Source of the DNA: Fimbriiglobus sp.
GTDB taxonomy: Bacteria; Planctomycetota; Planctomycetia; Gemmatales; Gemmataceae
Length of the DNA stretch: 38,332 bases
Assembly (NCBI GenBank): GCA_025351325.1
Contig: JANXWE010000243.1
Coordinates: 1 to 38,332 of the forward strand
Reading direction: 5' to 3'
A model generated the notes under the pieces. It saw only the letters and a program-made list of their open reading frames with translations. It had not been told where the DNA came from and did no database searches. Position numbers and translations under genes: made by a program. This document shows, piece after piece, positions 28,281-31,193 of this stretch (positions are counted from its first letter, which is position 1; each line of letters opens with the position of its first letter).

Positions 28281-28979
28281 ATGCGTCGGCGATTATTTCT
28301 AAGAGCCGTTCTGCTGATGGTGACGCTGTTCGTCGTCTTGCTTGGAATCGTCGGTTTACTACTGAAACAAGAGCCTGAGTTCTACGTTCGAGAGAATGCC
28401 AACATCACCCGCGCGGAGGATTCCGCACAGGCGGGGAAAGTCGTCACACGGTTGAACGAACTGCAAGACGATATGCGTTCGAGTCAAAAAGGGGACTGGG
28501 GGGCGAGCTTTCCAGCTGAGGATCTCAACGCGTTCTTCCGCGAGCGTGAAAATAACCTTGCCTCGGAGGCGATCCTACGCGACTTGCCCGATCAACGGGT
28601 CGCCATCGAGGATGATCGGCTTCGGATCGCCATCCGCAAAGGAAGCGGATTTTTCAGCACCGTCGTCGAAGTCGAAGTTCGGTTGTGGCTCGTCAAGGAT
28701 CAGTCGAATCTCATGGCGTTGGAAATCGTCGGCTTTCGAGCCGGGGCACTGCCACTCCCCAAGAACTGGATCTTGGACGAAATCTCGACGGCTGCACGTC
28801 GGCAGAATGCCGATGTGAATTGGTACCGAAATGGCACTAATCCGGTGGCGATTTGCAGGCTTTATTCCAACCAAAGCCGCCCGGAAACCCAGATCACGAA
28901 CTTCCGTATCGGCGATTCGACCATTTCCATCGGCGGCCGTCACACCGGGTCATCGGGCCAGCCACCACTCGCTAAGTAG
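28281..28979 (+). CDS. Hypothetical membrane-anchored protein
   Basis: A 232-residue protein. MRRRLFLRAVLLMVTLFVVLLG is a basic leader with one membrane helix and no clear cleavage site, so it is probably a signal anchor with a periplasmic body. The next segment (EPEFYVRENANIT, then LQDDMRSSQKGDWGASFPAEDLNAFFRE) looks like a conserved planctomycete envelope protein pattern that I cannot tie to a named family. The rest has alternating strands (VVEVEVRLWLVKDQSNLMALEIVGF). Start chosen because it opens the hydrophobic leader; no strong ribosome site. The stop overlaps the next minus-strand gene by eight bases. Confidence 0.75.
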   Translation: MRRRLFLRAVLLMVTLFVVLLGIVGLLLKQEPEFYVRENANITRAEDSAQAGKVVTRLNELQDDMRSSQKGDWGASFPAEDLNAFFRERENNLASEAILRDLPDQRVAIEDDRLRIAIRKGSGFFSTVVEVEVRLWLVKDQSNLMALEIVGFRAGALPLPKNWILDEISTAARRQNADVNWYRNGTNPVAICRLYSNQSRPETQITNFRIGDSTISIGGRHTGSSGQPPLAK

Positions 28980-29307
28980 CTCGCTGAAACGTCCAGTTTC
29001 CGAGGGTGTCCTGTTGCCAAGCAAACAAGCCGACCAGTTTTCGACCGGAAAAGTATGCAGTTCGGAGATGCTCACACCATTCGTATTCGCCGCAGTCCCA
29101 GCGTTTCACACTCCCACGAGCACCCGATACGACGCCCTCGTAATCGAGGTAATGTCGGCGATGGGGAGAATTGGGGTAAATAATCGACGGCGTTTCGGGA
29201 GAAAAGTGCGCCGGTAGCCTCCAAGCTTGGAGGACAGCACCGGCTTCCAGAAACAGATCCAGATGGGGCCCGGGCCAATCGTGTTCCAGGACGACGAACC
29301 GTGGCAC
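28972..29307 (-). CDS. Stand-alone LigD 3'-phosphoesterase-like domain protein
   Basis: A 111-residue protein matching the N-terminal 3'-phosphoesterase domain of bacterial NHEJ ligase LigD. RFVVLEHDWPGPHLDLFLE aligns with the HD...HYDLRLE motif: H9, H15 and D17 are kept, but the next Arg is F19. SPHRRHYLDYEG matches the second His/Tyr motif (H49, Y53), and GSVKRWDCG matches the IWDxG block. No ligase, polymerase or Ku gene is in the window. The start is GTG at 29307, with GAAGAG at the end of the upstream Cys-rich gene acting as likely ribosome site. Loss of the Arg may weaken or change the phosphoesterase activity; function unproven. Confidence 0.8.
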   Translation of the reverse strand: MPRFVVLEHDWPGPHLDLFLEAGAVLQAWRLPAHFSPETPSIIYPNSPHRRHYLDYEGVVSGARGSVKRWDCGEYEWCEHLRTAYFSGRKLVGLFAWQQDTLGNWTFQRAT

Positions 29308-29690: not shown

Positions 29691-31193
29691 TTATTTTTCG
29701 TCAGATTCGGCAATCGTCACCTCAAAGCGGACACGTTCACCGCTCAGCGGATGGGTGAAGGCCAAGCTTTGGGAGTGCTTTGAACCCGAGAGTGCCTCGT
29801 TTCGGGTCTGGAAAACTTGCTCCGCCTCACCGCTTTCTATCTGCGATTGAATCAGTTGGGCAAACTCGGCTTTGCGGCCAAACACCACCAACCCGGTGCA
29901 ATCCGCTGATAGTCGAAATGCCGGACGGGGCTTTTGCGGTGCGTACACGACCCGTAAAATTTCTTGCAAGGTATTCCGGTTGAACAGGCCTTCAGGAGTC
30001 GTCGGCAGCGGCGCCGGCTTGTCGACGACGATGATCGCTTCGTCCTCGTACAAGATCCGAATATGCGCATTGACGTCAGGTTCCAGCGGCAACGGTCGGC
30101 GGTGATACCAACGCTCACCCGCCTCGACGATTCGATCAGCCGATGATGGCTGGTGCCCGGCATCGAGAACATTCCCGAGAGCATATTCGCTGACCCAGTC
30201 GAACTCGGTCTCCCCGAGAATCTCCTGTAAAAATCCGCGCAGTGTGCGGCCAGCGTGATCAGCCGGCACTTGCAACGGGCGGAAGTTCTCGCCGGGCACA
30301 CTTCCCGGTAAGGGCGTCGTGACACGCAGCAGCAAGGCCCGATGTTGTGCGAGTTCTACGGCCCGAATCTCTTCGCGGGATCGGTAACAATGGTGGCACG
30401 ACACACATTCGACAAAACGCGGGTCGAGCAGCTGTTCGGCCGTGAGTGCGGCTTGGCAAACGAAGCAAAGTGTGTGCGGTGATTCTCCCAGATTCGATTC
30501 GAGGCCAACGCGCTTGTCGAATATGAAACAGTCCCCGTTGTAATGCTCTCCCCCACATTCTTCGAAATACTTCAAAATGCCGCCGTCGAGCTGAAACACT
30601 TGCTCGAACCCCTCGCGTTGCAAATACGGCCCGGCCTTTTCGCAGCGGATGCCACCCGTGCAGAACATCACAATCGGTTGCGTCTTCAGCGCCGCGGGCA
30701 GCTTCTCGGCACCCTTCGGAAAGTCCCGGAAATGGTCGATGCCAATTGCCACGGCGTTTTGAAAAGTGCCGAGTTTCACTTCGAAATTGTTACGGGTATC
30801 GAGCAGCGTGATTGGCCGACCTTCGTCGAGCCATTGTTTCAACTCGCGCGGCGAAAGTTTGGGTGACGGCCGCTCGGCCGGGTCGATCCCTTCGACCCCA
30901 AATGCGATGATCTCGTTCTTGATCTTCACCAGCATTCGTGTGAATGGCTGCTCGTCACTCTCGCTGAATTTCGGATCCAACCCGTTCAGCCCTGGCACCA
31001 ATCGGAGTTCCGCGAGCAGCCGCTCGATTTCCGGCTTGGCCCCGGCTACAAAGAGGTTGATCCCTTCCTGGCTCAGCAAGATCGTCCCGAGAAGTTTCCA
31101 CTCGCGGCACTGCGAAATCAAACGCTCACGGAGCGTCACCAACTCTTGCAAGTGCGCGAAGCGGTAGGCGGCAATGTTGGTCACGGCGGGCAT
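29691..31193 (-). CDS. Fusion of TrhO tRNA U34 hydroxylase with a degenerate RluA-like domain
   Basis: A 500-residue protein. Residues about 1-280 are TrhO/YceA, which makes 5-hydroxyuridine at tRNA position 34 using a rhodanese-like domain: LLSQEGINLFVAG, then LLDTRNNFEVKLGTF, the active-site C178 in VMFCTGGIRCEKAG, and a CFVCQ...CVSCHHC cluster. Residues about 310-365 resemble an S4 RNA-binding unit, and 378-500 an RluA-type pseudouridine synthase (ILYEDEAIIVVDKPAPLP). In that domain the HRLD motif reads FRLS: the catalytic aspartate is S429. The core after about 465 is also shortened. A stand-alone TrhO is usual; here the tail may serve tRNA binding. Start at ATG 31193 lacks a strong ribosome site. 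Confidence 0.88.
   Translation of the reverse strand: MPAVTNIAAYRFAHLQELVTLRERLISQCREWKLLGTILLSQEGINLFVAGAKPEIERLLAELRLVPGLNGLDPKFSESDEQPFTRMLVKIKNEIIAFGVEGIDPAERPSPKLSPRELKQWLDEGRPITLLDTRNNFEVKLGTFQNAVAIGIDHFRDFPKGAEKLPAALKTQPIVMFCTGGIRCEKAGPYLQREGFEQVFQLDGGILKYFEECGGEHYNGDCFIFDKRVGLESNLGESPHTLCFVCQAALTAEQLLDPRFVECVSCHHCYRSREEIRAVELAQHRALLLRVTTPLPGSVPGENFRPLQVPADHAGRTLRGFLQEILGETEFDWVSEYALGNVLDAGHQPSSADRIVEAGERWYHRRPLPLEPDVNAHIRILYEDEAIIVVDKPAPLPTTPEGLFNRNTLQEILRVVYAPQKPRPAFRLSADCTGLVVFGRKAEFAQLIQSQIESGEAEQVFQTRNEALSGSKHSQSLAFTHPLSGERVRFEVTIAESDEK

Follow-up and report, generated by a model that had tools for sequence, protein, structure and literature searches.

The window, by which we mean the whole 38,332-nucleotide stretch of the Fimbriiglobus sp. 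contig that was analysed, carries on its minus strand a gene (positions 29691 to 31193) that joins a TrhO-like hydroxylase to an S4-like and a degenerate RluA domain in a single protein of 500 amino acids plus stop. The reading frame is supported by Pfam and NCBIfam matches and by an ortholog, L006, found in the same locus order in another genome. It runs from ATG to stop without an internal stop codon, and the plus strand over the same region is full of stops. Given that there is one open frame and that the same in-frame fusion occurs in dozens of relatives, two separately translated genes with a missed stop between them are excluded. A small open reading frame encoding a LigD_N (3'-phosphoesterase-like) protein adjoins the fusion gene on the minus strand (28975 to 29307) and is 65% identical to an open reading frame at the equivalent position in G002, the genome that carries L006.

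The N-terminal half of the protein, TrhO-like over residues 1-240, contains the UPF0176_N (acylphosphatase-like) domain of TrhO at residues 5-95 (30909 to 31181; 80.7 bits in Pfam), with K90 and K92 aligned at the sites of E. coli K112 and R114, and a rhodanese domain at residues 114-210 (30564 to 30854; 41.8 bits) whose catalytic loop reads CTGGIRC (C178-C184). The preliminary description, which had recognised a complete TrhO with C178 as its cysteine, was thus correct on this point. A four-cysteine, zinc-ribbon-like segment follows at residues 243-270 (C243, C246, C266 and C269; 30384 to 30467), and its cysteines, which may bind metal, are invariant in all fusions of two alignments. Residues 300-370 (30084 to 30296) form an S4-like domain, identified by a match to the RluA-subfamily model TIGR00005 that starts at residue 316 and by a match to the RluD fold.

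Residues 371-464 (29802 to 30083) align with the N-terminal half of the RluA catalytic domain, and residues 474-500 (FTHPLSGERVRFEV; 29694 to 29774) align with its C-terminal strands and are modelled as such by AlphaFold. In the domain search PseudoU_synth_2 (PF00849) matches residues 387-458 with only 19.3 bits, below the cut-off of 26.8, and TIGR00005 matches partially over residues 316-458 with 58 bits against a cut-off of 192.7. The protein is colinear with dozens of fusions up to residue 464, after which approximately 100 residues, including the GRTNQIR motif, are deleted relative to intact homologues of about 595-610 amino acids. In addition, FRLS (F426-S429) stands in place of HRLD. Both the loss of the catalytic aspartate at S429 and the missing centre of the domain had been noticed in the preliminary description, and both are borne out. 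The window protein therefore shares with the RluA-family pseudouridine synthases RluA, RluC, RluD and TruC an S4-like domain, the opening half of the catalytic fold that comes after it, and the closing strands of that fold; unlike them, it lacks the catalytic aspartate, GRTNQIR and approximately 100 residues.

The same architecture is found well beyond this gene, in dozens of Planctomycetota and Verrucomicrobiota genomes. The TrhO-S4-RluA fusion is present in 13 of the 60 genomes of a first kinship sample (source genome counted), in 19 of 95 genomes of the family, and in many more of the phylum. By record title the carriers are Verrucomicrobiota and, among the Planctomycetota, Isosphaeraceae, Gemmataceae, Pirellulaceae and Brocadiaceae-labelled bins. 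The window gene belongs to this family, having both halves in one frame and a clade-specific RluA domain. The first reading of the DNA knew of no described fusion of this kind; likewise, we found no description of TrhO or UPF0176 joined to an RluA-type enzyme in the open-access literature searched, and as far as that literature shows the fusion has been undescribed so far.

Intact fusions carry HRLD (HRID in one) and GRT[NH]QIR. In an alignment of 47 fusions, an aspartate occupies the column of S429 in all 45 members other than the window protein and L006, and the G, R, T, Q, I and R of GRTNQIR are invariant in the same 45. Eighteen further copies from the phylum sample include 17 with HRLD, one of which has GRPNQIR. 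PseudoU_synth_2 scores 92-97 bits in those intact copies that were searched; the score falls to 48.6 bits in L006 and to 19.3 bits in the window protein. As judged from these alignments, all fusions keep the catalytic aspartate and, one variant aside, GRTNQIR, with the exception of the window gene, its same-genus ortholog and one further copy, L173. The intact family thus appears to have two active sites, probably catalysing rhodanese-type hydroxylation of U34 and RluA-type isomerisation of a uridine. Besides an intact fusion, two genomes (G004, with L051, and G100, with L050) encode another TrhO that stands alone and belongs to a different clade.

In a tree built from the RluA domains of sixteen sampled fusions together with E. 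coli RluA, RluC, RluD and TruC and six of the source genome's other paralogues, the fusion domains group in one clade (support 100/99) and all the others fall outside it. BLAST searches with the RluA half of four intact copies placed E. coli RluA closest or nearly closest in three, and the tree gives the fusion domains a clade of their own, so they cannot be assigned to RluA, RluC, RluD or TruC. The fused N-terminal halves likewise all lie in one clade (96/94), with unfused proteins nested among them; the window N-terminal half is inside this clade, within a set of 17 fused members (100/97). The unfused members come from an Opitutae group, Bythopirellula, a Spartobacteria bin and one further bin; the nested TrhO-like proteins are L074, L075, L076, L077 and L079 (Opitutae/Verrucomicrobiota), L122 (Bythopirellula), L080 and L073. 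L071, which is cut by a contig end, was not counted. These proteins stop soon after the rhodanese or cysteine-rich part, and neither an RluA remnant nor an RluA gene was found just downstream of them, the contig of L073 ending about 100 bases after its stop codon. The simplest reading of the trees would be a single fusion event, after which the RluA half was lost several times.

Given the mixture of phyla in these trees, horizontal transfer is likely to have taken part in the history of the family. A few of the fusion records carry the label Pseudomonadota; they include Rhizobiales bacterium TNE-4, which is not labelled as a MAG. The copies L057 (labelled Proteobacteria) and L063 (TNE-4) are closely related and nested among Planctomycetota and Verrucomicrobiota copies, and a horizontal origin is likely for both.

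The ortholog in G002, an independent assembly from the same genus, retains HRLD and has lost GRTNQIR together with approximately 65 residues; because it keeps the one motif without the other, it represents an intermediate state. The two loci share their gene order, with an RRM-protein gene, the fusion, the LigD_N-like gene and two further genes. The fusion gene is absent from two further genomes of the genus; G003 still has the pair of genes that follows the LigD_N-like gene, and the fusion does not occur within the 20 kb covered there. Together, the window protein and L006 break the near-invariant positions H399, R403, T432 and K459 and the GRTNQIR block of the pseudouridine synthase half, and they keep the invariant positions of the N-terminal half except A161 (glycine in both) and V224 (isoleucine in the window protein). 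Seven intact RluA-family genes lie elsewhere in the source genome. None of the six that were compared in full joins the fusion clade, and a stand-alone substitute for the lost domain was accordingly rejected among them.

These observations suggest a stepwise history. A TrhO-S4-RluA fusion of single origin would have been the ancestor of the window gene. Within the genus, GRTNQIR and part of the sheet would have been lost first, the state seen in G002, and the catalytic aspartate and more of the centre would have gone in a second step, leading to the window gene. The TrhO half would have stayed complete, making ho5U34 alongside a candidate TrhP of the U32-peptidase type, and the remnant, consisting of the S4 domain, half of the pseudouridine synthase domain and the last strands, cannot isomerise uridine and would most likely persist as a constrained vestige or structural appendage. 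We consider it likely, with good though not full confidence, that the window gene is such a descendant of the fusion, with its pseudouridine synthase half inactivated stepwise and its TrhO half most likely working.

A second degenerate copy is L173, in genome G453 of the same class and a different family. It is a 626-amino-acid open reading frame with a full-length pseudouridine synthase domain in which HPPD, EHPHSIR and VTAR replace HRLD, GRTNQIR and YLAR. By its sequence, L173 is an independent case of a degenerate pseudouridine synthase active site.

Speaking against pure decay, the remnant has not evolved neutrally. Between the window gene and L006, dN/dS is 0.13 for residues 1-240 and 0.16 for residues 301-464 (Nei-Gojobori), values that are rough because dS is near saturation (pS of 0.61 and 0.69, respectively). 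A neutral segment would show dN near dS, which indicates that constraint has acted over most of the divergence between the two genes. Moreover, the remnant has an open frame of 200 codons and retains its last strands, so that it may have some function. On the window branch, the retained pseudouridine synthase part evolves at 2.0 times the rate expected relative to the N-terminal half on a fixed tree, the highest of 39 tips, but other tips nearly match it at 1.9 and 1.8, which weakens this rate as a sign of decay; the S4 part of the window protein stands at 1.2.

The preliminary description had proposed that the pseudouridine synthase fold was kept as a non-catalytic module that binds tRNA for U34 hydroxylation. 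The fusion, the loss of the aspartate and the central deletion on which this idea drew are all real in this gene. As an account of the fusion itself, however, it does not hold, since homologues of the same architecture retain GRTNQIR and HRLD, the latter being what the description had named as its refutation, and the serine whose conservation at the aspartate site would have supported it occurs in the window gene only and is absent even from L006. If there is a non-catalytic role, it would be confined to this genus and the lineage of L173. In this narrower form, the S4 domain and the half pseudouridine synthase domain would have been retained by selection for RNA binding or docking, so as to help the TrhO half to reach U34. 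The low dN/dS of residues 301-464 agrees with such a role, as do the open frame and the C-terminal strands kept in two species, the AlphaFold pLDDT of about 85-96 over most of the remnant (although the alignment contained intact homologues and may have biased the model), and the full length of L173 despite the loss of all three of its signatures. Against it, S429 is unique to the window gene, the nested lineages without an RluA half indicate that the TrhO half does not need one, the retained pseudouridine synthase part is accelerated on the window branch, and the S4 part is only 49% identical even within the genus. Residues 300-500 carry a net charge of -9, which also argues against RNA docking, although the charge of intact copies varies between -11 and +6. 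We regard a selected docking module as a possibility, though a rather doubtful one.

Structural models bear on the same question. AlphaFold2 models built from a 24-sequence alignment reached a mean pLDDT of 86 (window protein) and 88 (the intact copy L053). The window model lacks the two inner strands and the GRTNQIR helix that L053 has at approximately residues 502-535. In Foldseek comparisons, the intact model matches RluA (2i82) with a TM-score of 0.85 of the target and also matches RluD, as against 0.34-0.38 for the window model. These models and rates fit a C-terminal remnant that is part-folded, non-catalytic and weakly constrained. It may have a non-catalytic role in RNA binding, but it is no less likely to be a vestige still under residual constraint.

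The TrhO half is complete. In E. coli TrhO, mutants show that C200, T201, G203 and R205 are essential and that K112 and R114 are needed for activity (PMC6599085). The aligned residues of the window protein are C178, T179, G181, R183 and K90, and R114 is replaced by K92, a change shared by the four further TrhO-like proteins in the alignment with E. coli TrhO; by alignment, every residue known to be essential is kept or conservatively replaced. The window protein resembles TrhO (YceA/UPF0176, the oxygen-dependent tRNA U34 hydroxylase) in its UPF0176_N domain, rhodanese domain, cysteine-rich C-terminal segment, CTGGIRC loop and basic strand residues, and differs from it in its additional 200 residues (S4 and degenerate RluA domain) and in an N-terminal half that lies in a PRK05320-like branch. 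TrhO makes ho5U34 with O2 and is redundant with TrhP (PMC6599085); the source genome also encodes a U32-peptidase protein, a candidate for TrhP or a relative of it. A profile search of the genome gave no match to PF01596 (TrmR-type) and only partial matches to the CmoB family.

The chemistry of this subclade is itself not certain, since the sulfurtransferase model PRK05320 is the best NCBIfam match of the N-terminal half (311.7 bits, just under its own cut-off of 331) and the intact fusions L011 and L017 exceed that cut-off. The half could accordingly be a PRK05320-type sulfur carrier or transferase, and the fusion could have coupled sulfur chemistry, not U34 hydroxylation, to pseudouridylation. 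The window protein nonetheless passes the cut-off of the TrhO model PRK00142 (NF001133; 235.6 bits against 170), the solved structures nearest to it are the Legionella UPF0176 protein 4f67 and tRNA-bound B. subtilis TrhO, 9j5o, the essential TrhO residues are kept or conservatively replaced, and the PRK05320 name is an annotation rather than a tested function. We hold the sulfur reading to be improbable, and the TrhO half is most likely still the working, ho5U34-making enzyme. An assembly or consensus error, by which the deletion and FRLS would be MAG artefacts of a 382-contig draft assembly, is scarcely credible, since the motif codons (TTT CGA CTA TCA, against CAC CGG CTC GAC in L006) require several base changes for both H to F (CAC to TTT) and D to S (GAC to TCA), which makes a sequencing slip unlikely, the frame is intact and the independent same-genus assembly is shortened in the same region.

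E. coli RluA modifies U32 of tRNA and position 746 of 23S rRNA. Given that the intact RluA halves are near E. coli RluA by BLAST, a second target in the anticodon loop is attractive, although the tree does not place them with RluA; the sets of tRNAs recognised by E. coli RluA and TrhO differ, which calls for caution. One conjecture, which we think unlikely, is that the intact fusion hydroxylates U34 and isomerises a nearby uridine such as U32 in the same tRNAs and in one binding event, and that its pseudouridine synthase half has repeatedly been either turned into a non-catalytic tRNA-binding module, in this genus and independently in L173, or shed. A covalent link between TrhO and a second tRNA-modification enzyme has a precedent in the TrhO-TrmR fusion of Phytophthora and Phaeodactylum (Sakai et al. 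2019, PMC6599085), in which TrhO is paired not with a pseudouridine synthase but with TrmR, a methyltransferase of the same base.

Interest lies more in the intact family than in the window gene, which taken by itself is a decayed copy of lesser importance. That this family, in two or more phyla, joins a hydroxylase of wobble U34 covalently to a pseudouridine synthase hints directly at a coupling of the two modifications. One could look for the substrate of the RluA half among whatever changes together with the TrhO targets, and this genus and L173 provide natural loss-of-activity cases that may separate catalysis from RNA binding.
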